IMG/VR virus record: IMGVR_UViG_3300037264_008235
Coordinates: 1 to 64,000 of that record
Source: a virus
Length of the DNA stretch: 64,000 nucleotides
Strand: one strand, 5' to 3'
Shown here: in pieces, positions 17,475 through 45,986 of the stretch
How positions within the stretch are numbered: the stretch's first letter is position 1
Layout of the letters: each line of letters starts with the position of its first letter
The notes under the pieces: model-generated
Told to the model about the DNA's origin: nothing
What the model saw: only the letters and a program-made list of their open reading frames with translations
Databases searched by the model: none
Program-made: the position numbers and the translations under genes

Positions 17475-18029
17475 CTACTGCCGGTCGAGCAGCTCGGCGC
17501 CGTTCAGTCGGGACTCTTCGAGCTTCCGTTCCAGTTCCGTCCGCTCCGCTTTCAGGCGCTCGCACCAGCCGCGCGCCTCGTCCCGCTCCGCGATCACGCG
17601 ATTGACCGTGTCCTCCGCTATCCGGAGAATCTCCACGGGCATCGCCACGCCCTCGGACTTCGGATCGAACCCGAGCGACGCGAGCGTCGTCCCGAGGTCT
17701 CCAGGCTCCGCGTAGTGAACGGGCATCCGGCAGCGGACCGCCTCCGCGATCTCCTCCCGCACACCGACGCTCTCCTCCCACCCGTCGAGCTTCAGGACGA
17801 CCAGCGCCTCGGCCGCGCGGAGGAACTCGAAGTCGACCCGGCGCCAGAACGGCCAGTCTTTCTCGAGATCGTGGAGCCGCGCTCGGCAGATCGTGAAGCT
17901 GTAGACGATCGGAGAGAACACGACGTGGCCGGCGCGCAGCTCCCGCTCCAGGAAGTCCAGCGCGCGGTGGTACCGCTTCTCGCGGATGACCGGGTCCGCA
18001 TGCGTGAACGGGCTCGCGAGGTAGATCAC
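17475..18029 (-). CDS. DUF1937 / nucleoside 2-deoxyribosyltransferase-like protein
   Basis: 184 residues. The start MIYLASPFTHADPVIREKRY with AGHVVFSPIVYS and later EALVVLKLDGWEESVGVREE matches the DUF1937 family, Rossmann-like proteins related to nucleoside 2-deoxyribosyltransferases. The C-terminal 50 residues form a predicted coiled coil (NRVIAERDEARGWCERLK). A role in nucleotide salvage or base exchange is possible but unproved. It overlaps the next gene start by 4 nt and precedes terminase. Confidence 0.7.
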   Translation of the reverse strand: MIYLASPFTHADPVIREKRYHRALDFLERELRAGHVVFSPIVYSFTICRARLHDLEKDWPFWRRVDFEFLRAAEALVVLKLDGWEESVGVREEIAEAVRCRMPVHYAEPGDLGTTLASLGFDPKSEGVAMPVEILRIAEDTVNRVIAERDEARGWCERLKAERTELERKLEESRLNGAELLDRQ

Positions 18030-22957: not shown

Positions 22958-23860
22958 TCACGTCTTCTCCCTCCTGTGCTCCTCGACCAGGGCGCGGATC
23001 GCGGGGTGCTTCGGCGTCTTCCGCTCGACCAGCTCCGCGCCGTACTCGTCGACCGCCGGCAGCTTCGAGAGGTCGACGCCCGGCTTCAGGATCAGCGGCG
23101 TCCGGAACCCCTTCCACGCGTCGCGAATCACGTGCTGCGGACGCCCGTAGCGGCGGGACGTCTTCACGACTCCCGGCCAGGCGCGCTCGAGGCTCCGGGC
23201 CATCTTCAGGCGCCCGTCCCCGGAGTAGAGCGCCTCCGTGTTCCCTCCCTTCACGGTCATAGTCGTCATCTTCCAGGCGAGGAACACGTTGACTAGGATC
23301 GTGCACCACCCGCCGGCGAGGACCTGGAGGCAGAGGTCCGCATCGTCGTTGTACTCGAACCGCCAGCGGAACGGAGCCGCGTGGTTGACGAGCGTACAAG
23401 AGTAGACGTGAGCGTTCACGAAGAAGGGCGGGACCCTCGACCGGTTCGGCGCGAACATGTAGTAGTTCAGGCCCGAGATCCCGACGTTCTCGTAGCGGTC
23501 CGTGAGGTCCTCCGCCACGCGGAGCGCGAGCCCGGCCTCACACGGGACCTTCCTCGCCTTCCAGCGCCGCCAGAAACCGGAGATGTTGTCGTCGAGCTGC
23601 CAGTGCTTCGCGGCGCCGGACGCTTCCGCGTGGTCACGGATCCAGTTCCGCGCGCGGAGGAGCCCGTCCTTCGCTCCCGGATCGTTGTCCCGAGGGAGGC
23701 AGACCACGCGCTCCGCCCCGAACCTGCGCGCGTAGTCTTCCCGCTCGCGCGGCTGGACGACGAGCAGGAAAGGCACCGCATCCCTGAGGAGCGCCTTGGC
23801 CGTCAAGCAGACGTCCGCTCTCCCCGCGGACGGGATGTAGACCGGGTAGCGCGGGTTCAC
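22958..23860 (-). CDS. GREB/TAGT-like glycosyltransferase (DNA base modification candidate)
   Basis: 300 residues from GTG at 23860 (GTGA overlap with the preceding gene). Residues 5-14 (YPVYIPSAGR), KHWQLDDNISGFWRRW (85-100), GISGLNYYMFAP, PFFVNAHVYSC, WRFEYNDDADLCLQVL (166-181) and GGNTEALYSGDGRL match the GREB/TAGT family, relatives of the base J glucosyltransferase. LDD (89-91) and NDDAD (171-175) are likely metal/sugar-nucleotide sites. Known relatives in phages sit with enzymes that modify cytosine or thymine in DNA. Here the partner is the methyltransferase-ParB fusion next door. The sugar and the base are not known. Confidence 0.75.
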   Translation of the reverse strand: MNPRYPVYIPSAGRADVCLTAKALLRDAVPFLLVVQPREREDYARRFGAERVVCLPRDNDPGAKDGLLRARNWIRDHAEASGAAKHWQLDDNISGFWRRWKARKVPCEAGLALRVAEDLTDRYENVGISGLNYYMFAPNRSRVPPFFVNAHVYSCTLVNHAAPFRWRFEYNDDADLCLQVLAGGWCTILVNVFLAWKMTTMTVKGGNTEALYSGDGRLKMARSLERAWPGVVKTSRRYGRPQHVIRDAWKGFRTPLILKPGVDLSKLPAVDEYGAELVERKTPKHPAIRALVEEHRREKT

Positions 23861-25392
23861 GTCTTCGGCGCCTCCTCGAACCGGAGACCCGCCACGTCCT
23901 CCCGCTCGGAGAGCGGCCAGCGGACCGACCACGTCTTCTTCTTCCGGTAGATATTGGTCGCACCGATCTTCTCGACGAACGCCGCGCGCCCGGCCTCGTC
24001 CTCGAAGAGGACCACGAGCTTGAGCTGGTCCTCCCCCTCCTCGTAGCCGGGAAGCCCGACCCAGGCGGCGGCGGCGTCGAGGTCCGGCAGCTCGTCCGCT
24101 CCGCGCGTCACCATCGCGAGCGCGGCGAGTTGCGCCTCGTCGAAGCCGGTCCCCTCGAGGCCGGCCGGCAGCTTGGCGAGCTCGCGGAGCATCTCGGTCA
24201 GCGTCCGGTCGTCGATCTCCGCCAGACGCGCGACCTCATTGTCGCCGGCGAGGATCCGGAGCGCGCGCGAGTCGTCCGGCTCGAGGTCGAGGCGGACGGC
24301 GGGCCCGCGCTCGATCCCCATCGCGAGGGCCGCCTTCACGACCCCGTGACCGGCGAGGACCGTCCCGTCCCGGGCGATCACCACCGGGCGGTAGAACCCG
24401 TTCGCCCGGAGGCTCGCCTGCAGGTGGGCGATCTGGTCCGGCGGATGCTCCCGGTAGTTTCGAGGGTGCGGGCGGAGAGAGGAGAGCGGGACGACCTCGA
24501 TCGGGAGGTCGGCGCGCGGGGCGGACGGGAGCGGGGCGGGTTCGGTCAAGGACGTCTCCTGTCTTGCGGGCCTCTCGGCCTCTCCGGCGAGGACCCAGAC
24601 GCCGGGTCGGTTGTTCCAGAAACCGGAGCTCACGCTCCGGTAGCCCTGGGCCCTCATCTCCTTGGCGAACACGCGGCCGAAAGAGCCGCCGTCGACCGGC
24701 CCGTCGTCGGACTGGTACCAGCGGAAGTGCCCGATCGACCGAGCTCCGAACGCGTTGGCGACCAGCCAGGCTCTCGGCCGGACGTTCCGGAGTATCTCCC
24801 TCAGGTGGTCGATCGGTCTCTCGAAGTGCTCGAAGTACTCGCTCGCGAGAGCGAGGTCGCACTCCCAGCCGCGGAGCGCCGCCGCGCTCTCCTCGAGGCG
24901 GAACCCGGTCCTGCGCGCGAGGACGGAGGCGACCCTCCACTGGAGGGACTCGGGCAGTTGCGTCCCGACGACGTCGGAGCCCGGGAACATCTCGGCCAGC
25001 GCCGCGGTCGTGACGCCGATCCCGCAGCCGAGGTCGAGGACGCCGCGCCCGGGCCCGACCTCGAACAGGCGCTTCTTCCTCACCTCGCGCAGGTACCGCC
25101 TCGAGTAGACGGCCCAGCACGTCCAGGCCTCGGAAACGTACTCGGCGTCGTCGTAGACGCCGAAGTCCGGCAGCTCCGCGTCGAGCGACCGGTACCAGCG
25201 TTCCGTGAGCGGGTTCGGGTAGCCGTCGGAAGCCCTGGAACCGAAGTGGGAGACGCAGTCGCGGGAGAGGCGGACGATCTCCTCCGCTCCCTCGATCCCG
25301 GCCTCGGTCAGCAGGGAGAGGAAGAATCGGAACCCGGCGTCGCCGGCCATGTCCAGGAACGAGCCGGTCAACGGTCCTCCTCCTGGTGTCAT
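23857..25392 (-). CDS. SAM methyltransferase fused to a ParB-like domain
   Basis: 511 residues, ATG overlapping the nuclease-gene stop (ATGA). Residues 118-126 (VLDLGCGIG) are the SAM-binding motif of a class I methyltransferase, continuing to about residue 265 with SEYFEHFERPIDHLREIL. A Pro-rich linker leads to a ParB/Srx-like domain at 297-410: VPLSSLRPHPRNYREHPPDQ, SLRANGFYRPVVIARDGTVL, AGHGVVKAALAMG. The ParB part has the R-P-H-P-N-Y and GH turn of phage ParB-like enzymes rather than a partition protein, and there is no ParA. With the adjacent glycosyltransferase it suggests DNA modification. Confidence 0.72.
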   Translation of the reverse strand: MTPGGGPLTGSFLDMAGDAGFRFFLSLLTEAGIEGAEEIVRLSRDCVSHFGSRASDGYPNPLTERWYRSLDAELPDFGVYDDAEYVSEAWTCWAVYSRRYLREVRKKRLFEVGPGRGVLDLGCGIGVTTAALAEMFPGSDVVGTQLPESLQWRVASVLARRTGFRLEESAAALRGWECDLALASEYFEHFERPIDHLREILRNVRPRAWLVANAFGARSIGHFRWYQSDDGPVDGGSFGRVFAKEMRAQGYRSVSSGFWNNRPGVWVLAGEAERPARQETSLTEPAPLPSAPRADLPIEVVPLSSLRPHPRNYREHPPDQIAHLQASLRANGFYRPVVIARDGTVLAGHGVVKAALAMGIERGPAVRLDLEPDDSRALRILAGDNEVARLAEIDDRTLTEMLRELAKLPAGLEGTGFDEAQLAALAMVTRGADELPDLDAAAAWVGLPGYEEGEDQLKLVVLFEDEAGRAAFVEKIGATNIYRKKKTWSVRWPLSEREDVAGLRFEEAPKT

Positions 25393-25838
25393 CCGGGTGT
25401 CCTCCAGGCGCCTCCAGGTGCCAGGAACGGGAGCGGTCCGCCCTCGCGGTAGGCGCGGGCGGCGCGGAAGCGGGTCACCACGACCCGGAAAGCGGCCGGG
25501 AACGCGTCCAGAGAGAGCTCGACCCCCTCCGGGTCCTCCAGGCGGACCAAGTCCCTGAGGACGAACGCGCAGAGGCCTTGCGCGCGGAGCCGGCGGAGGC
25601 GCTCGACCTGGGCGGGGCGGAGCGGCCCGTCCCCGGACTTGAGCTCCGGGAGGAGGACGGCGCCGCCGGGCCCGAAGACGATCAGGTCCGGCCAGCCCGG
25701 AGGGGTCATGGCGTCCTGGCGCTCGACGCGGGCGAGCCAGCCGCGGGAGCGGAGGGCGGCGACCAGGGAGGCGCGGTCGTCATTCTCACGGCGGGCGCGG
25801 GAGCCTTTGGACGGGCGGCTTGGGGCGCGGTTGGTCAC
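25389..25838 (-). CDS. VRR-NUC-type nuclease
   Basis: 149 residues, GTG preceded by GGAGGTTCC. Asp51 in GWPDLIVFG and Glu65/Lys67 in LLPELKSGDG followed by PAQVERLRRLRAQG form the PD-(D/E)xK core of VRR-NUC endonucleases, single-domain nucleases common in phages and thought to act on branched DNA. It lies next to the presumed origin, so a replication or recombination role fits. Confidence 0.82.
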   Translation of the reverse strand: MTNRAPSRPSKGSRARRENDDRASLVAALRSRGWLARVERQDAMTPPGWPDLIVFGPGGAVLLPELKSGDGPLRPAQVERLRRLRAQGLCAFVLRDLVRLEDPEGVELSLDAFPAAFRVVVTRFRAARAYREGGPLPFLAPGGAWRTPG

Positions 25839-26254: not shown

Positions 26255-29200
26255 TCATTCCTCACCCGGCTCTCGGTTACGTTCGCCGGGACCCTCCGAC
26301 CAGTGAGCGTCTTGCGTCGCGAGCGCGATACCGCGGTACTCGATCTTCCGGCCCGAGTGGCGGGAGGATTTCCGCTTCTCGAGCCCGCGCTCGGAGAGGC
26401 GGAGGCTGAACGCGGTCTGGGTCAGCGGGTCCTCTCCGCGCTTGAGAGCCCAGTTCCTGTAGTCGCCGTACAGGTCTGAGGCGAAGGCGGCGGCGTGGGG
26501 GGAGAGGGCGCAGCGGTCGGTGATCCACTCCCCGACGACGTCCTGTTCCGAGCGGTACTCGGCGGTGGCCTCCCGGACGGCCTCCGGATCCCGGAGCCCG
26601 CCGGCGAACCAGGCGACCGCGCCGCGGACGATCCAGGCGAGGATGCCGGGCGCCTCGGCGCGGAGCTTCTCGGGCAGCTCCGGGTCGCGCTCGGCCTCCG
26701 GGACGACGACGGAGAACGGGATCAGGCGGATGCGGCGCCAGATCCCGACGTCGGTGCCGCGGACGTCCGGTTTATGGTTGGCGGCGAGCCAGACCTTGTG
26801 GGTCGGCTCGAAGGACCAGAAGTCCTCCCGCATCCGCCTCGCCTTGATCAGGTCCCCGCCGGTGATCTCCTTGACGATGGCCTCGGCCATCGCGCGGCCC
26901 TCCCCGACCTCGATGGTGGAGACGAGGCGCTTGCCGTGCAGGTCGGCGAGCTCGGTCGGGTGGTGCTCGCCGCGCTTGGCCAGGAGGAGTTCCGGGGGGG
27001 CCTTGTCGGCGTAGTCGGTTCCGAGGACGTGCTGGAGCGCGCCGAGCCAGGTGGAGTTGTGGGTCGGGACCATTCCCTCCCCGACGAGGTAGAGGTGGGA
27101 AGGGGAGTCGACCTCGACGCAGCGGACGGGGACGGGAGCGACGGGGTAACAGGCGACGACTGACCGGAAGAGCGGGAGCGAGCGCGGGCGGCAGGCGCCG
27201 AGTTTGCGGGGCGAGGAGAAGACGTCCAGTCCGGGGACGGTCGTGAAGATCACGCGGAACTTCGGGCCGTGGTCGACGCCGTTCAGGCGCGCACGGCCTT
27301 CGGAGAGCGTCGGGCGGAGGCCGAGGGAGCGGGCCAGCTCGAGGACGCCGTTGGCCAGCGCGCGGGAGGTCGAGCAGTACTCGCATTGCGCCTGCCGCTT
27401 GAGCGCGTGGCCGTCGGAGTCCATCAGTCCCTGAAGGAGCGCGAGTCGCTGTCGGGCGGAGGCGCGCAGGTAGGCGGGCGGGACGTGTTTGTTGTCGAGG
27501 ACTTCCGCGCGGGCGAGCTTGGCGCGCGCGGAACCTCCGCGCATTCCGCAGCCGTAGCGGCGTTCCGTGGTGCGGAACGTAAGTGTCCGGCCTCGGCCCT
27601 TCACTCTCCCGAATGAGCAGAAGTACCCGGCGTTGGAGAACCGGCCGGCGACGTGGCCGGAATCGTCCTCGTGAGTAGCGATCTGCGGTCCTCCGGTCGA
27701 GCCGTTGCCGAGCCAGTAGCCGAGGACGTACGGGTCGAGCGGGAGGTCCGCGTCCGGCAGCGTTAGGGCGCCGGCCATCGCGACGCGCCAGCGGTACTCG
27801 GTCCCGCCGCGGCAGGCTCCGGTTGTGGGCCGGACGCGGACGACGACGTTGTCGGCGATCTCTCGAGTCATCCGGGTCGATTCCCGGCCGACGTAGTCGG
27901 AGACGCGCCACTCGTGCTCGGCGTCGGCGACGACGGAAGTACCGTCGGAGAATCGGACGCGGAAGCAGGGTCGGTCCGTCCACGTATCGGAGAGCGCCAG
28001 GACTCGGCAAGGCACGCCGCGTTCATCGAATACGAGATCTCCTGGCCGGAGCGCGCCCTGCGTCGTCCACCCCGTAGGAGTCGGAATGTAAGTGTTCAAG
28101 CAGCACGCTTTTCCGTTGGCGCCCGTCCCGTAGCAGAAGAAGAGGGCGTGGTCGCGGACGGAGCCGGTGGCGGAGTACCCGGCGGCGCGCTGTAGGTACT
28201 CGATCAGGAGGCGGTTCGGTTCCCAGGAGGTCCCCTCGGTCGTGACCAGCTCGCGGCCGAAGATCCGGTCGAGGAACCGTTCCCAGATCGGCGCGGGCGC
28301 GGCGGGGTCGAAGGGAGTCGGGCAGAGCTTGGTGATCATGTCCGCCTTGGCGTGCGGGCGGAGGGCGCCGGAGCGGAGGTCGACGACGCCGTTGGGGCAG
28401 CAGAGGGCCCAGGGGTCGCGGTCGAGGAGGTCGGGGAGGACGGCGACGCGGGAGCGGGCCATCTCGGCGGCGTTGCTCGATCCGGCGCGGGAGAGGGACT
28501 TGACCGCCCAGCGGGCGAGGGCCTTGGCCTCGGCGGGAGTCGCGGCGTCCAGGGCCTCACGGAAGATGCCGCGGACGGAGCGGAGGGCGCGGCGCTCGAT
28601 CTCCCCGGTCCGGTCGGGGCACCAGCGGGCGCCGTCCCAGGCGAGCCACTTGTTCCACGGGTAGCAGAAGCGGAGGTCCTCTCCGTGGTCGCGCACGAGG
28701 CGGGCGGCGTTGCCGGAGTCGGAGAACCGCTCGCTGTCCGGGCCGGGGAGGGGGGCGGGGGTCGCGGCCGTCGCCGGGGCGGTCCCGTTCCCGCCGGCGT
28801 CGCCGGAGCCGGCGGTCGCGTGCGGGCGCGGAGCGCCGAACCCCTCTCCGGCGAGGGCGCGGGCGGCGGCGCGGAAGTCGCCGCCGTGCTCGAGCAGGGA
28901 GAGGACCTGGAACGGGCTGTAGGCGTGGCGCGGCTCGAACGGTTTCCAGGAGGGGGAGAAGACGTAGAGGAGCGGGACGCCGTCGATCTCCCGGACGGTG
29001 GCGTCGATGCCGCGGGTGCGGGCGCCCGGGCGGCGCCAGTGCTCGATCCCGCCGGCGGCGGAGCGGGCGAGGACGGCGCCGCGGCGCTCGAGGAGGGCGC
29101 GGACGTTCCCGCGGCGGTTGTAGTCGTCCCCGGGGCGGTCGGTCCGGTCCGAGCGGGCGGAGCCGGACTCGACCTGCCGCTCGCTGGAGCCGGCCCGGCC

Positions 29201-29818
29201 GGCGACGCCGGCGGCGACGAGGCGGGCGGTCCGGGTGGGTTCGGGGAGGAGGACGCGGAACGCGCCGGTCCGGGCGACTCCCTGGACGGTGGCGCGGGGC
29301 GAGTAGAAGAGGCGGGCGCGGTCGAGGACGGGGGTCTGGTCGACGGAGAGGCCGCCGGAGTCGCCGAAGGGGAGGAGCTCGTGCACGGCGGTCTCTACGA
29401 GGAGCGCGGCGCCGCGGGCGGCGTCGTCCTGGAGGTCGCCGTCGGGCTCGGGCTCGTCGAGGACGAAGACGGCGCGGAGCCCGCGCGGGGTGCGGTGGGA
29501 GAGGTTGAGGAGCGGGGCCAGGAGGCGCTCGGCGGCGGCGGCGACGTTCTCCGGGACGGCGGAGTGGACCCACTCGGACTCGCCGGCGGGGGGCGGGGTC
29601 AGGTAGTCGAGGTCGACCACGACGGCGGAGGAGGAGCGCCAGGCGTCGCGGGAGCGGCGGTCGCCCTCGAACTCGAAGGGGGCCCACCAGGCCTCGTCGC
29701 CGGCGTGGGCGCCGACGAGGGAGGCGAGCGAGCGGACGGGGTCGGCGGGGTCGAGCGGGACGCGGCGGCCGTCGGGGCGGCGGAGGCCGAGGCCGAGGGT
29801 GACCGCGCGGGGTTTCAA
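26255..29818 (-). CDS. primase/SF3 helicase interrupted by an intein
   Basis: 1187-residue precursor from a TTG start (TTGA overlap, GAGGAGGAA ribosome site); about 836 residues after splicing. The N-terminal 200 residues look like an archaeo-eukaryotic primase (VVVDLDYLTPP, HRTPRGLRAVFVLDE). A D5-type domain follows (FCYPWNKWLAWDGARWCPD), then an SF3 helicase with the P-loop GTGANGK-ST, Walker B LVSTIEVGEG and motif C VWLAANHKPDVRGTDVGIWR. A 351-residue intein separates Lys and Ser of the P-loop, so splicing is required for activity. Function: primer synthesis and strand unwinding at the adjacent origin. Confidence 0.88.
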   Translation of the reverse strand: MKPRAVTLGLGLRRPDGRRVPLDPADPVRSLASLVGAHAGDEAWWAPFEFEGDRRSRDAWRSSSAVVVDLDYLTPPPAGESEWVHSAVPENVAAAAERLLAPLLNLSHRTPRGLRAVFVLDEPEPDGDLQDDAARGAALLVETAVHELLPFGDSGGLSVDQTPVLDRARLFYSPRATVQGVARTGAFRVLLPEPTRTARLVAAGVAGRAGSSERQVESGSARSDRTDRPGDDYNRRGNVRALLERRGAVLARSAAGGIEHWRRPGARTRGIDATVREIDGVPLLYVFSPSWKPFEPRHAYSPFQVLSLLEHGGDFRAAARALAGEGFGAPRPHATAGSGDAGGNGTAPATAATPAPLPGPDSERFSDSGNAARLVRDHGEDLRFCYPWNKWLAWDGARWCPDRTGEIERRALRSVRGIFREALDAATPAEAKALARWAVKSLSRAGSSNAAEMARSRVAVLPDLLDRDPWALCCPNGVVDLRSGALRPHAKADMITKLCPTPFDPAAPAPIWERFLDRIFGRELVTTEGTSWEPNRLLIEYLQRAAGYSATGSVRDHALFFCYGTGANGKACCLNTYIPTPTGWTTQGALRPGDLVFDERGVPCRVLALSDTWTDRPCFRVRFSDGTSVVADAEHEWRVSDYVGRESTRMTREIADNVVVRVRPTTGACRGGTEYRWRVAMAGALTLPDADLPLDPYVLGYWLGNGSTGGPQIATHEDDSGHVAGRFSNAGYFCSFGRVKGRGRTLTFRTTERRYGCGMRGGSARAKLARAEVLDNKHVPPAYLRASARQRLALLQGLMDSDGHALKRQAQCEYCSTSRALANGVLELARSLGLRPTLSEGRARLNGVDHGPKFRVIFTTVPGLDVFSSPRKLGACRPRSLPLFRSVVACYPVAPVPVRCVEVDSPSHLYLVGEGMVPTHNSTWLGALQHVLGTDYADKAPPELLLAKRGEHHPTELADLHGKRLVSTIEVGEGRAMAEAIVKEITGGDLIKARRMREDFWSFEPTHKVWLAANHKPDVRGTDVGIWRRIRLIPFSVVVPEAERDPELPEKLRAEAPGILAWIVRGAVAWFAGGLRDPEAVREATAEYRSEQDVVGEWITDRCALSPHAAAFASDLYGDYRNWALKRGEDPLTQTAFSLRLSERGLEKRKSSRHSGRKIEYRGIALATQDAHWSEGPGERNREPGEE
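27056..28108 (-). mobile_element. class 3-type intein with LAGLIDADG homing endonuclease
   Basis: Precursor residues 571-921. It begins with Ala, not Cys or Ser (ACCLNTYIPTPTGW), and ends in VPTHN before a Ser. Block B is VVADAEHEWRV, block F is VPVRCVEVDSPSHLYLVG and block G is MVPTHN. The Trp of HEW, Cys of RCVEV and Thr of PTHN form the WCT triad that defines class 3 inteins, which splice through the block F cysteine. The homing part has two LAGLIDADG helices, VLGYWLGNGSTGGP and ALLQGLMDSDGHA, so it may still spread. Confidence 0.82.
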
Positions 29819-30189
29819 TCTTCCTCCTCGTCGTCGCGGAAGTCGGTCTCGCCGCGCTTCTCGATGATCTCTACGCACTTGGCGCGCTGCTTCTCGGAGA
29901 GGGAGCGCCCGGAGCCGACCTGGCGGGTGATCGAGTCGGCGAACTCGGATTCCCAGTCGGAGAGGCCGCCGTAGTCGGCGAGCTGGTCGGAGAGGTCGCG
30001 GTCGGGCCAGCCGGCGGGCCCGGCTGGCGCGCCGGGGCGCGGGCCGGCGCTGGCGAGGTTGTCCGGGTCCTGGCGGGCCCAGGAGAGGAAGCGGCCGCAG
30101 GCGCGGCACTCCTCGCGGAGGTGGGCCGTCCCGTCCGCGAAGGCTTCCCAGCGGACGCGCGTCCGCTCGTGAGCGCAAGATCCCGACAA
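29815..30189 (-). CDS. zinc-binding hypothetical protein before the primase
   Basis: About 124 residues from a TTG at 30189; the open frame runs further upstream but across the operator at 30290. Cysteines and histidines in SGSCAHERTRVRW and REECRACGRFLSW suggest a small zinc site. The rest is acidic and helical (YGGLSDWESEFADSITRQV, SEKQRAKCVEIIEKRGETDF). Directly upstream of and coupled to the primase, so it may be a replication accessory factor. Start uncertain. Confidence 0.55.
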   Translation of the reverse strand: MSGSCAHERTRVRWEAFADGTAHLREECRACGRFLSWARQDPDNLASAGPRPGAPAGPAGWPDRDLSDQLADYGGLSDWESEFADSITRQVGSGRSLSEKQRAKCVEIIEKRGETDFRDDEEED

Positions 30190-30289
30190 GCTGACCGCCC
30201 TCGACCGCCGCCGCCGTTTCGATCTGCCGGGTCGCCCCGACCCCGCCGCCGCGCCTCCTCCGGACCGCCCGGACCGGGGGGAGCGCCGC

Positions 30290-30306
30290 CGAATATAACA
30301 CCTGCG
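30290..30306 (+). promoter_or_regulatory. operator/promoter-like site B before the primase operon
   Basis: CGAATATAACACCTGCG, a 17-nt exact copy of site A (22919-22935). It lies upstream of the primase operon, in the same orientation relative to the minus-strand gene as site A. Two identical copies 7 kb apart in GC-rich DNA are unlikely by chance. Confidence 0.6.
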
Positions 30307-30353
30307 CGGGAGAGAAGTGGTAACCGGAGGCGGGCGGGGGCGCGCGCGGAGCG

Positions 30354-30593
30354 TCACGGCGACTCCGTCCGCGGAGTGGCGACGGGTGCCTCATCGCCGT
30401 AGGGATACGTCTGGTAGCGGGAGAACTCGTAGACGTCCTCGTTCCCGCGCCGGCGCCGCTCGTAGAAGTGCCAGACGTCCGGCCCGTAGCAGGAGGCGGG
30501 GAAGACGACGAAGGGCGTGGCCGGACGGCCGGCCCGGAACTCGATCCAGCAGCCGTCGTGCGGCCCGCCGAAGACGCGCCGGGAGCGGGTCAC
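30354..30593 (-). CDS. hypothetical protein, 79 residues (GGPxDG family)
   Basis: GTG at 30593, GTGA overlap with the exonuclease gene. Features GGPHDGCWIEFRAGRPA, then ASCYGPDVWHFYERRRRGNE. A second phage gene at 42162-42392 shares the GGPxDG start and the C-terminal Tyr/Arg-rich strand. The two may be distant paralogues. Function unknown. Confidence 0.6.
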   Translation of the reverse strand: MTRSRRVFGGPHDGCWIEFRAGRPATPFVVFPASCYGPDVWHFYERRRRGNEDVYEFSRYQTYPYGDEAPVATPRTESP

Positions 30594-39025: not shown

Positions 39026-39329
39026 CGACCCGGTCGTGGTCGGGTTCGACACGTGCCGTCCCGGCGCCGCGCTCGTGGCGACGCGGTTCCGGATCGGGGA
39101 CCTCTCCGGGTACGGGCTCTGGAACGACAAGCTGCTGATCTTCGACGGGTACCTGCTGGACGGGTCCGCCGAGGGCCGGGTCGACGTGGCCGTCTCCGTC
39201 CCCCTGAACGGCGCGCTGGTGGCCCTGGGCTGCGTGGTGGGCGCGGCGTGCGTGGGGCTGTTCGTCTACTGCGTCGGGTCGAAACTGATGGACGAGTGGA
39301 AGTGGCGGCAGCGCGGGAGGCGGGGGTGA
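39018..39329 (+). CDS. single-span membrane protein, 103 residues
   Basis: Beta-rich N-terminus (VVVGFDTCRPGAALVATRFR), then one membrane helix (VALGCVVGAACVGLFVYCVG) and a short basic tail. Probably N-out with the tail inside. Role unknown. Confidence 0.65.
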   Translation: MPDDPVVVGFDTCRPGAALVATRFRIGDLSGYGLWNDKLLIFDGYLLDGSAEGRVDVAVSVPLNGALVALGCVVGAACVGLFVYCVGSKLMDEWKWRQRGRRG

Positions 39330-40690
39330 GCTACGCGACCTTCCTGGAGCGAAAGTCGAACGTCGGGGCACGCGAGGGCTTCGATCCGATCTGGATGCCC
39401 GACTTCCTCTTCCCGTTCCAGGTCGCACTTGCTGAGTGGGCGATCCAGCGCGGACGTGCCGCGATCTTCGCGGACTGCGGCCTGGGCAAAACGGCGATAC
39501 AACTCGTGTGGGCCGAGAACGTCGCCCGGAAGACCGACGGCCGCGTGCTCCTCCTGACCCCGCTCGCGGTCGCGCAACAGACCATCCGCGAGGCGGAGAA
39601 GTTCGGGATCGAGGCGCACCGCTCGGTTGCCGGGGAGTTGCGGGGGCGCATCGTGGTCACGAACTACGAGCGCCTCCACCACTTCAACCCGGAGGACTTC
39701 TCCGGAGTCGTCTGCGACGAGAGCAGCATTCTCAAGTCGTACGACGGGGTCCGACGCGCCGCCATTACCGGGTTCATGCGGAAGACGCACTACCGCCTCC
39801 TTTGCACTGCGACAGCGGCACCAAACGACTACGTTGAGCTGGGCACGTCCAGCGAAGCGCTCGGGCATCTCGGGCACGTGGACATGCTCAATCGGTTCTT
39901 CGTGAACAACCGGAACAACTCGGCTGTGGGTGGGCGCCACCACCGCGAGACGATCCAATGGCGCTTCAAGGGACATGCGGAGGCTCCATTCTGGCGCTGG
40001 GTCTGCTCTTGGGCGCGCGCGTGCCGAAGCCCCTCCGACCTCGGATTCGAGGACGGGTCGTTCATGCTGCCACCGCTCAAGGAGCGCGAGCACGTGGTCG
40101 AAGCGCGGACGCTGCGCCGCGGCGCCCTCTTCGCGCTTCCAGCGGAGAACATGCAGGAGGAGCGCGAGGAGAGGCGACGAACCATCATCGAGCGGTGCGA
40201 GAAGGTTGCAGAGCTGGTGCGCGGGAACGCGCCCGCTCTGATCTGGTGCGGTCTCAACGACGAGGGGGACTTACTCGAATCCATGATCCCGGACGCCCTC
40301 CAGGTGGCTGGCGGAGACTCCGACGAGGCCAAAGAGGAACGCCTAACCGCGTTCGCTGAGGGTCGCGTCCGCGTGCTCGTCACGAAGCCCAAGATTGGAG
40401 CCTGGGGGCTGAACCTTCAGCGGTGCGCGCACGTCGTCTTCTTCGCCACGCACAGCTTCGAGTCCTACTACCAAGGGGTCCGTCGGTGCTGGCGATTTGG
40501 GCAGACGCGCCCGGTTCTCGTGGAGACGGTGGCGACCGAGGGGGAGGCGCACATCTTGGACAACATGCGACGGAAGTCCGCTCAGGCTGACCAGATGTTC
40601 TCGCAACTGGTCGCGCTCATGGGCGAGCAGCTTTCGATTGGGAGGCGACTCGTGGGAACCATCGCAACGGAGACACCGGCGTGGCTGTAG
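39326..40690 (+). CDS. second SNF2-like helicase, foreign-looking codon usage
   Basis: 454 residues, GTG overlapping the previous stop. Walker A FADCGLGKTAIQ, DESS box VVCDESSILKSY, motif III CTATAAPND and motif VI QGVRRCWRFGQTRP are present; the motor is more compact than the first. Codons use T and A in third position much more than neighbours (TTG, GCA, ACT, CGA). With the following methyltransferase it seems a unit acquired from elsewhere. Possible role in modification or in defeating host defence. Confidence 0.78.
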   Translation: MSYATFLERKSNVGAREGFDPIWMPDFLFPFQVALAEWAIQRGRAAIFADCGLGKTAIQLVWAENVARKTDGRVLLLTPLAVAQQTIREAEKFGIEAHRSVAGELRGRIVVTNYERLHHFNPEDFSGVVCDESSILKSYDGVRRAAITGFMRKTHYRLLCTATAAPNDYVELGTSSEALGHLGHVDMLNRFFVNNRNNSAVGGRHHRETIQWRFKGHAEAPFWRWVCSWARACRSPSDLGFEDGSFMLPPLKEREHVVEARTLRRGALFALPAENMQEEREERRRTIIERCEKVAELVRGNAPALIWCGLNDEGDLLESMIPDALQVAGGDSDEAKEERLTAFAEGRVRVLVTKPKIGAWGLNLQRCAHVVFFATHSFESYYQGVRRCWRFGQTRPVLVETVATEGEAHILDNMRRKSAQADQMFSQLVALMGEQLSIGRRLVGTIATETPAWL

Positions 40691-41649
40691 CCGAGCAGAT
40701 CGTGACCGACCGCTTCGCACTCTACCTGGGCGATTCGATCGAGGTCCTGGCGGACTTGCCCGAGGAATCCGTCCACCTCAGCGTCTACAGCCCGCCGTTC
40801 GGTGGCCTCTACCACTACAGCTCCGACGATCGCGACCTGTCCAATTCGAGCGACTATGCGACCTTCTTCGAGCACTACGGCTTCCTGGTGCGTGAGAAGA
40901 CGCGGGTGACAATGCCCGGACGGATGAGCGCGGTCCACGCGATGGACATCCCGTCTGGGAACACGGGCAACGACCACCTGCGCGACTTTCCGGGGGACCT
41001 GATCCGGCTCCACGAGCGCGAAGGCTGGCACTACGTCGCGCGCTACCACGTCTGGAAAGAACCGCTAGGTGTCAGGAACCGGACGTTGGCGAAGAACCTC
41101 GCGCACAAGGCGATTGTGGAAGACTCCTCGCGCTGCTCGTGTGCCAGCGCGGACTACCTCCTGATCTTCCGGAAGCACGGGACGAACCCGGTGCCGATCG
41201 CGCACCCGCACGGGCTGATGGACTACGCGGGCGAGCGGAAGGTGCCGCAGTACCTTCTACGCTACCGGGGCTGGCGCGGCAGCCAGATCGAGAACCGCTA
41301 CTCGCACTGGATATGGCGGCAGTACGCGTCGGCCTTCTGGGACGACGTGCGCCTGGATCGCGTGCTCCCGTTCCGGCCCGCCAAGGACGAGCAGGACGAG
41401 AAGCACGTCCACCCGCTCCAGCTCGACGTGATCGAGCGCGCCATCGTCCTCTGGAGCAATCCGGGAGAGACCGTGCTCACCCCGTTCATGGGTGTCGGGA
41501 GCGAAGTCTTCGGCGCCGTGAGCCTCGGGCGCCGCGGCATCGGCGTGGAACTGAAGTCGAGCTACTTCCGGCAGTCGGTGCGGAACCTGGAGCTCGTGGG
41601 CGTCGCAAAGGATCAACAAGCGAGTCTGTTTCATGACACAGCCGAGTAG
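40681..41649 (+). CDS. beta-class DNA methyltransferase (N4C or N6A)
   Basis: 322 residues, GTG overlapping the helicase stop by 10 nt. Catalytic motif IV SPPFGGLYHYSS (37-48) comes before SAM motif I TPFMGVGSEVFG near the C-terminus, the beta order. SPP[FY] is found in N4-cytosine and N6-adenine enzymes, so the base is uncertain. The middle has SRCSCASADYLLIFRKHGTN. Codon usage resembles the upstream helicase, not the phage average. No restriction enzyme is adjacent. Confidence 0.82.
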   Translation: MAVAEQIVTDRFALYLGDSIEVLADLPEESVHLSVYSPPFGGLYHYSSDDRDLSNSSDYATFFEHYGFLVREKTRVTMPGRMSAVHAMDIPSGNTGNDHLRDFPGDLIRLHEREGWHYVARYHVWKEPLGVRNRTLAKNLAHKAIVEDSSRCSCASADYLLIFRKHGTNPVPIAHPHGLMDYAGERKVPQYLLRYRGWRGSQIENRYSHWIWRQYASAFWDDVRLDRVLPFRPAKDEQDEKHVHPLQLDVIERAIVLWSNPGETVLTPFMGVGSEVFGAVSLGRRGIGVELKSSYFRQSVRNLELVGVAKDQQASLFHDTAE

Positions 41650-43973: not shown

Positions 43974-44281
43974 GGCTGAACCTGACCGTCCAGGCCCGGA
44001 CCGCCGCGGTCGTCGAGGAGCTGAAGAACGGAGACCCCTCGGTCGTCGTCCTCCGCCACCTCCAGCTCTGCGCGGCCGACGCGCTCCGCTCCCTGGCGCG
44101 CGCGTTCGACGACGCCGCGCAGACGGAGAGCGAGGCCGCGTTCGCCACCTACGGGGACGACCCGGAGACGCCGTGGCCGGAGTGTGTCGTCGCGTCCGTC
44201 CGGCGCGCGAACTCCTGCGCCTCGGCCGCGCGCGCGACGGCCGACGCCCTCGACCGCGCGGCGGCGCGGGACGGTTTCTGA
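43970..44281 (+). CDS. helical hypothetical protein, 103 residues
   Basis: GTG (GTGA overlap). Helical (LNLTVQARTAAVVEELKNGD, LCAADALRSLARAFDDAAQT). No family recognised. Confidence 0.55.
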   Translation: MRLNLTVQARTAAVVEELKNGDPSVVVLRHLQLCAADALRSLARAFDDAAQTESEAAFATYGDDPETPWPECVVASVRRANSCASAARATADALDRAAARDGF

Positions 44282-44282
44282 T

Positions 44283-45417
44283 GTGGCTCCTCCCGCCGTC
44301 CGCTGCCTCTCTCTGTTCTCCGGGCTCGACGGTCTCTTTGCTGGACTCCGCCGCGCGCTTCCCGGAGCGCGTCTTGTGGCTTGCGCGGAACGGGAAGCCT
44401 TCCCCGCGGCCGCTCTCCTGGCCCGGATGGAAGACGCGTCCCTGGAGCCGTGTCCTGTTTTCTGCGGCGACGTCCGGGAGGTGGACTGGCGCGGCTGGGC
44501 CGGAGCCGTGGACCTCGTCCTCGCCGGCTGGCCCTGCCCGCCGGTCTCCCTCGCCGGCAAGCGGCTCGGCCGGAAGGACGAGCGGTGGCTCTGGCCGGAG
44601 GTCACGCGCGCCCTTCGCGAGACTGGCGCCGGATGGCTCCTGGCAGAGAACGTGCGCGGCCTCCTATCTGCCGACGATGGAGCCGCCTTCGGAGAGGTTC
44701 TCGGGGACCTGGCCGGTCTCGGGTTCGATGCGGAGTGGGACGTGTTCAGCGCGGCTGAGGTCGGATCGTCCCAGCGGCGCGAGCGAGTGTTCCTCCTGGC
44801 CCGCTCCCGACGCGTCGGAGGCGGGCTCGAACCGGAGCGCCTCCTCCGGAGCTGCCGAGCGGCCCGCGATCGCGACGGCCGCGCGGAGCTGGGCCAGCCC
44901 GCGGACGGTGGACGGGAAGTACCGGGACGGGAAGGGCGGGCGCTTCCTGACGCTCGAGGGGCAGGCGACGGCGCTCTGGCCGAGCCCGATCGCGTCGGAC
45001 GCGGAGAAGGGGGTCGACCGGCGCTTCGACCGCAACCCGACGCTCCTCGGCGCGGCGCGGGACTGGCCGACGCCGGGCGTCCCGAACGGGGGGCGCACGC
45101 TGCCTCCGGGGACGAGCCGGACGGGAGTCGTCCCGGACGGGCGGCAGCGGCAGGTGGACCTCCGGCGCGAGGCCGCGCTCTGGCCGGCGCCGGTCGCGAG
45201 CGACGCGCGGAGCGGGGAGGCGTCGGAGGCGACGGCGCGGAAGAACAGCCGGCCGCTCCGCGAGACGGCGCTCCGCGCGCTGCCTTCCCTCCTGGACCGA
45301 ACGAGCACGAGAAATGGAGCAGAATCTGCGCCCTCCGTTACGACCTCGCGCCAGCGCTTGAATCCCCGCTTCGTGTCCGTGCTGATGGGACTCCCTTACT
45401 GGTGGACGGAGATCTGA
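44283..45417 (+). pseudogene. C5-cytosine DNA methyltransferase, frameshifted
   Basis: From a GTG at 44283 the first frame carries motifs I (CLSLFSGLDGLFAG), IV with catalytic Cys85 (AGWPCPPVSLAGKRLG), VI (LLAENVRG) and VIII (SSQRRERVFLL). At about 44793-44800 the matching continuation moves by +1 base to another frame, with WPAPDASEAGSNRSASSG, LWPSPIASDAEKG and RLNPRFVSVLMGLPYWWTEI, then a TGA. The first frame stays open but stops looking like a methyltransferase. It could be a true mutation, an assembly error or a programmed +1 shift. Motif X is not reached; it lies beyond the HNH gene. This enzyme would put a methyl on cytosine. Confidence 0.75.
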
Positions 45418-45420
45418 ACC

Positions 45421-45879
45421 GTGAAGAGGTGCCGGTCCTGCGGAGCGGAGTTGGCTCAGAAGAGGTTCCGCAGCGGAGTGCTCGAGGCTCCGTGCATGAT
45501 GAAGCGGCGGGTCTACTGCGACCGGACCTGCATGGCGGCAGGGATGATGAAGCCGGTCTCCGCGTTGACGCGCTCTGGGCTCTTGGTTCGGGCTCGCCGG
45601 CATTTGAAGTCGCGCTGCGAGCGTTGCGGGACGTCTCAGCGTCTTGGAATCCACCACGCCGACGGCGACTGGAGGAACAACTCACCGCACAACCTGATCA
45701 CGTTCTGCGCTTCTTGTCATACGCGGCACCACCACGAGCGTGGGGACATCGTTCCGCGGAGGATTCCGAGGTCCTGTCCGGTGTGCGGGCGGCGTTTCTG
45801 GCCGAGCGGTTTCAAACCCCGGACGTGCTCTCGCTTCTGCGGGCAGGCTCTCAGACACAGGCGCGCCTCCGGGCGATGA
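45421..45879 (+). CDS. HNH endonuclease, inserted inside the methyltransferase
   Basis: 152 residues, GTG three nt after the frameshifted methyltransferase stop. HNH core GIHHADGDWRNNSPHNLITF and CASCHTRHHHE, with zinc-binding cysteines in KRCRSCGAEL and SCPVCGRRFW. Such genes are often homing endonucleases. Its stop overlaps the next ATG (ATGA). Confidence 0.8.
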   Translation: MKRCRSCGAELAQKRFRSGVLEAPCMMKRRVYCDRTCMAAGMMKPVSALTRSGLLVRARRHLKSRCERCGTSQRLGIHHADGDWRNNSPHNLITFCASCHTRHHHERGDIVPRRIPRSCPVCGRRFWPSGFKPRTCSRFCGQALRHRRASGR

Positions 45880-45986
45880 GCCGAGATGACCGCCTGCTCC
45901 GACTACGCGCGCTGGGCAACGCGGTCGTCCCTGACTGCGCGGCCCGGGCCTTCCTGACGCTCCTCCCCCGCCTCCTGGAGCCGTAA
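45876..45986 (+). CDS. C-terminal fragment of the C5 methyltransferase (motif X)
   Basis: 36 residues, ATG overlapping the HNH stop. RDDRLLRLRALGNAVVPDCA is the motif X segment that closes C5 methyltransferases. It is the missing end of the enzyme that begins at 44283, left behind after the HNH insertion, though it could be translated and assemble with the N-terminal chain. Confidence 0.65.
   Translation: MSRDDRLLRLRALGNAVVPDCAARAFLTLLPRLLEP

Follow-up and report, generated by a model that had tools for sequence, protein, structure and literature searches.

Does the glycosyltransferase gene of this phage act, together with the methyltransferase-ParB gene in front of it, in DNA hypermodification, and if so by which route? 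The initial annotation described the two as a candidate hypermodification pair in which a methylated or oxidised base receives a sugar. The window, which is positions 1-64,000 of a 65,465-bp IMG/VR record from a virus of bacteria, was compared with about 170 related viral loci. The module most likely represents a variant form of DNA glycosylation in phages. The TAGT family of the enzyme and its recurrent pairing were confirmed and DNA is the likeliest target, but the proposed passage from 5mC through an oxidised base to a sugar did not hold as the route of the group.

The two genes and their neighbourhood

Positions 22958-25392 hold two intact minus-strand genes within 2.4 kb, the TAGT gene downstream and a methyltransferase-ParB-WMPEF fusion gene upstream (Table 1). 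The overlap that had been reported between them is real and is 4 bp long; the longer overlap in the ORF list is an artefact of picking the most upstream start codon. The GTG at 23860, which has AGGAGG in front of it and is supported by the sequence and by relatives, is most likely the start of the TAGT gene.

Table 1. Positions of the module and of related features in the window.
Feature	Position	Strand	Remarks
TAGT-family glycosyltransferase gene	22958..23860	-	300 aa from GTG 23860; PF20691, phrog_842
DDN (D90 D91 N92), where the GT-A fold probably binds metal/nucleotide sugar	23585..23593	-	alignment A1
Overlap of stop and start codons that couples the fusion and TAGT genes	23857..23860	-	4 bp, GTGA; upstream TGA and GTG
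Methyltransferase-ParB-WMPEF fusion gene	23857..25392	-	511 aa; unfused order known in L119 and L123
WMPEF domain	23869..24063	-	small C-terminal domain of the ParB protein; in relatives it immediately precedes TAGT or is joined to it
ParB-like domain	24103..24510	-	residues 295-430; phrog_620 9e-30, phrog_498 3e-28; alignment A2
TAGT-associated class I SAM methyltransferase domain	24538..25392	-	residues 1-285; Methyltransf_23 2e-8
VRR-type nuclease	25389..25838	-	phrog_93 1.6e-12; Pfam VRR_NUC 0.0036, below cut-off; neighbour of the fusion gene, putative module member
N4/N6 methyltransferase	40681-41649		absent from the initial annotation
C5 methyltransferase	44184-45986		PF00145 E=1.3e-28

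The ORF at 22958-23932 on the minus strand matches the whole Pfam TAGT profile PF20691 (positions 1-205 of 205) at an E value of 2.2e-39, scoring 136 bits where 27.5 would suffice, and it matches phrog_842, "beta-glucosyl-HMC-alpha-glucosyltransferase", at 6e-34. D90 and D91 are invariant across 14 TAGTs, as are D173 and D175 (alignment A1), conserved acidic positions of the sort that a GT-A active site should have. The place of the window enzyme in the TAGT family is upheld by the full-length match and the intact conserved residues. The comparison of structures with TAGT enzymes that had been suggested as a check was run on the predicted model of L078, a 44%-identical relative, which has a pLDDT of mostly 90 or more across the TAGT region. 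Both GT-A enzymes and models of viral TAGTs are among the fold matches of this model, as are the protein and polymer glycosyltransferases COLGALT1 and TarP. A search of solved structures with the TAGT profile found no relative.

The gene upstream is a fusion of a SAM methyltransferase with a ParB-like protein, as had been described. The Methyltransf_23 match spans residues 99-217 of the protein and that of phrog_620 covers residues 295-427; Pfam ParB_N reaches merely 0.095. The two domains were analysed separately; a full-length alignment (A4) had laid methyltransferase rows on ParB. In the ParB-like domain the canonical GERRxRA-type CTP-binding motif is altered and reads GHGVVKAA (alignment A2, by eye), so that the working of an adaptor built on this domain is a guess. 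The C-terminal WMPEF domain, which the initial annotation did not list, has about 70 residues and the pattern W..MPEF ... F ... W-P.

At the position of motif IV the methyltransferase domain reads ASEYFEH, which is invariant in 40 relatives. Neither the amino-methyltransferase motif [DNS]PP[YFW] nor the C5 motifs PC and ENV are present in the fused domain, and a role as base methyltransferase was rejected on that ground. In a Foldseek comparison the AF2 model of the domain (pLDDT 91) has its best matches in DsyB, AtmM (second best), SgvM, TleD and UbiG, at modest TM-scores of 0.4-0.5; substrates of class I methyltransferases are hard to assign by fold. AtmM is a glucose-4'-O-methyltransferase (PMC10951976). 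The modelled domain resembles small-molecule and sugar methyltransferases, and its fold and neighbourhood suggest that it may O-methylate a sugar. In both motifs and fold it does not look like a base methyltransferase.

The VRR-type nuclease and the C5 methyltransferase named in the initial annotation were both recovered (Table 1), and the cumulative GC skew of the window turns near 24 kb. A D5 helicase-primase is also among the neighbours. Its gene (26255-30394) carries an apparent intein with a LAGLIDADG homing endonuclease (PF14528, PF05204), inserted at about 27046-28126. The C5 methyltransferase has an unusually long middle region, its Pfam match is confined to the first half, and a motif IX/X-like stretch (LRALGNAVVP) lies close to the C-terminus. 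An SNF2-type helicase gene followed by the N4/N6 DNA methyltransferase occupies 39053-41649; the same two genes immediately precede ParB-TAGT in L036 and are found near the TAGT in L077. A nucleoside 2-deoxyribosyltransferase-like gene (17475-18029; phrog_355, E=8e-18) adjoins the terminase.

Partners of TAGT in related viruses

TAGT relatives were taken from IMG/VR as the best 80 of at least 597 stretches, a sample that leans to relatives of the window enzyme. The WMPEF domain is the conserved partner of TAGTs of the ParB/WMPEF class. It was found adjacent on the same strand, or fused, in 129 of the 160 TAGT genes with sufficient upstream sequence, namely in 68 ParB-type proteins, 45 small genes and 16 TAGT fusions, the ParB-type and small forms being separated by length and profile. 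The remaining 31 genes are mostly second tandem copies or have a methyltransferase in between. The three contexts of the domain (ParB C-terminus, small separate gene and TAGT N-terminus) are homologous by hhalign (98.8-99.8%). Two stand-alone members had no credible match in Pfam. Among 50,697 phage records a WMPEF query gave 13 matches, each on the N-terminal side of a TAGT.

The methyltransferase too is specifically associated with TAGT. When its relatives are clustered at 85% identity, a same-strand TAGT lies within 1.2 kb in 34 of 44 clusters and within 60 bp in 23, so the pairing noted initially is real and recurrent. The TAGT-associated family, METHYLTRANSFERASE, is nearly confined to phages, with 261 viral relatives against 2 in the genomes of 84,980 species (one genome per species). 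A tblastn search of annotated phages with the domain returned none. Every order of the methyltransferase gene relative to TAGT and ParB is seen among relatives. Methyltransferase, ParB and TAGT follow one another unfused in L119, with short overlaps, and in L123, with gaps of about 10 bp, which identifies the window gene as a fusion of neighbours. In L003 and L004 the gene before TAGT encodes a stand-alone ParB protein without a methyltransferase.

Other genes accompany TAGT in some relatives. A UDG-fold protein, placed with family-4 UDG/TDG by profile and fold comparison, adjoins TAGT in L003 (10998-11612), L025 (7882-8445) and L028 (7180-7668), and in L078 and L085 the two are fused; the UDG-fold part possibly flips or reads bases. 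In 12 loci a nucleotide-sugar epimerase/dehydratase gene is found in the vicinity of TAGT, and 5 loci have radical SAM genes there. These genes fit a supply of sugar and a handling of bases; the window has neither the UDG-like protein nor any epimerase/dehydratase or radical SAM gene that could be found.

TAGT genes are also multiplied or rearranged in places. One ParB gene is followed by four tandem TAGT genes in L050 (5247-8382), and further tandems or fusions occur in L003, L023, L043 and L065. In L031 (3279-4946) the ParB protein carries at its N-terminus a domain that resembles DXD-type sugar transferases, with a Gly_transf_sug match (E=0.084) that does not reach the cut-off; this would be a second type of enzyme fused to ParB.

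Three cultured phages, c5 and phiLdb of Lactobacillus delbrueckii and Lilbeanie of Gordonia, have ParB followed by TAGT without TET or TS, the control for TET being Nonlabens phage P12024L from the other record searches. The TAGTs of these phages have diverged and the WMPEF profile has no match in their ParB proteins, and the three are therefore regarded as more distant examples of the pairing. The TAGT of phiLdb (L190, 848-1713) is annotated as two ORFs and corresponds to one full-length ORF in the related c5.

Handle-making enzymes and known TAGT systems

Profile searches of the whole 65,465-bp record found neither TET/JBP (PF12851), for which P12024L was positive in the same search, nor a TS-type hydroxymethylase (PF00303); their absence, noted earlier for the window, was thereby extended to the record. 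TET is likewise lacking in all 33 of the ParB-TAGT records tested. P12024L, the positive control, was the sole match in the first record set and alone above the cut-off in the second; a weak match in G043 fits a general 2OG oxygenase with a much better score. PF00303 was found in none of the 74 metagenomic records of both sets, the source records of loci with either TAGT or its associated methyltransferase, and was detected in seven large cultured phages, in control genomes and T4-like phages. Many records are fragmentary, which weakens any single absence but not the overall pattern. A C5 methyltransferase is present in 4 of the 33 ParB-TAGT records, once weakly, and is thus not part of the module. 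N4/N6 methyltransferases (PF01555, above cut-off in 8 of 47 records) were ruled out as a conserved part in the same way, and the 2OG-Fe oxygenase PF13640 as a general handle-maker (above cut-off in 6 of 47 records and absent from the window). With the usual DNA-preparing enzymes missing across it, the group may use a route of DNA decoration not yet described.

Two kinds of TAGT system invite comparison. The TAGT of T-even phages adds a second sugar to 5hmC that is already glucosylated, the 5hmC coming from a TS-family enzyme. The T2/T6 beta-glucosyl-HMC-alpha-glucosyltransferase belongs to the same Pfam and PHROG family as the window enzyme, but the record of the latter has no TS-family gene. 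The TET-TAGT cluster of P12024L shares with the window a TAGT beside a methyltransferase gene and a neighbourhood of replication genes. Unlike the window, such clusters have TET; 56 of 85 TET loci have a TAGT within 5 kb, and WMPEF/ParB is nearby in only one of the 85 (L262), where it is beside a WMPEF-type TAGT. In the TAGT tree the TET-coupled enzymes form one separate group (100/99) and the window enzyme falls among the ParB/WMPEF-coupled TAGTs; the former group sits on a long branch, so that its exact position is unsure, and the TET loci sampled are a narrow set of P12024L relatives.

Solitary TAGTs, among which the window enzyme would count, were reported (288 of 753 genomes, without alpha-/beta-GT), and their role is stated as open; the available part of that account makes no mention of ParB, WMPEF or methyltransferase partners (PMC13216743). 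ParB-like domains have been tied to phage DNA methyltransferases, and ParBc domains are neighbours of CmoX (PMC12783734). As in those phrog_498 fusions and CmoX loci, a ParB-like domain stands beside a candidate DNA-modifying enzyme in the window, but here the partner is a glycosyltransferase, the methyltransferase has no DNA-methyltransferase motifs and a WMPEF tail is present. A literature search found no paper on ParB and TAGT together, although earlier primary work on phage TET/TAGT and on computational discovery may mention such neighbours.

The probable substrate

DNA would by analogy be the likeliest substrate of the TAGT, because the characterised T2/T6-type TAGT acts on DNA (PMC13216743), because ParB-like domains of this type are elsewhere joined to DNA methyltransferases of phages (phrog_498; PMC12783734), and because UDG domains are fused to TAGT in relatives. 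On balance, the module probably carries out an adaptor-guided, TET-independent glycosylation of phage DNA, in which the sugar would probably be methylated afterwards. The ParB-like protein and its C-terminal WMPEF domain would act as an adaptor and guide the TAGT to the DNA of the phage, and the TAGT, as a GT-A enzyme, would move a sugar from a nucleotide-sugar donor onto a base. The fused methyltransferase would then most likely O-methylate the attached sugar as a cap, and the product may shield the DNA from host nucleases. Against this explanation count the lack, in the searches above, of an enzyme that makes a hydroxyl handle and the action of GT-A folds on proteins and polymers as well.

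The latter point leads to an alternative that seems unlikely but is the strongest of the rivals, in which the TAGT glycosylates a protein of the capsid, the tail or the host, with the ParB-like partner serving as protein adaptor. The fold matches to protein and polymer glycosyltransferases, the frequent position of TAGT beside terminase genes and the second GT-like domain fused to ParB in L031 agree with it; the DNA substrate of the characterised enzyme and the ParB-like and UDG-fold partners point instead to DNA. Proximity to terminase would also suit a local mark, with ParB confining modification to the region of packaging (cos/pac) or to some other short stretch. In favour are the site binding that a ParB-like domain suggests, the place of ParB-TAGT next to terminase in many metagenomic loci and, in c5, its position straight after the cos site and ahead of the terminase. 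Such nearness is by itself no sign of local action, and in the window the large terminase gene is about 5.5 kb from TAGT with other genes between; local marking seems improbable. Equally doubtful is the route initially proposed, in which the C5 methyltransferase makes 5mC, an unrecognised or host enzyme converts it to 5hmC and the TAGT adds the sugar as in TET-coupled phages: a C5 methyltransferase in the window and in the record of L003 and the TET-TAGT-methyltransferase cluster of P12024L are in its favour, but the rarity of that methyltransferase, the absence of TET and TS-type enzymes and the separate clade of TET-coupled TAGTs, which lack the WMPEF adaptor, mean that, even if it might apply to this one phage with its C5 methyltransferase, it cannot explain the group.

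Adaptor-guided glycosylation of DNA may extend beyond this phage. Hundreds of viral loci share a set of partners, namely an adaptor domain that no Pfam family covers and a methyltransferase specific to phages. It is plausible, though somewhat less likely than not, that phage DNA glycosylation without TET or dNMP hydroxymethylase is widespread, with delivery by ParB/WMPEF, a cap added by the methyltransferase and the sugar placed on a normal base or on a handle made by an unrecognised enzyme. The cultured ParB-TAGT phages, such as Lactobacillus phage c5 and Gordonia phage Lilbeanie, make the DNA-glycosylation reading directly testable. If the DNA is indeed modified, the module would add another chemical way of decorating DNA with sugars, which would bear on restriction, escape from CRISPR and modification-dependent defence.
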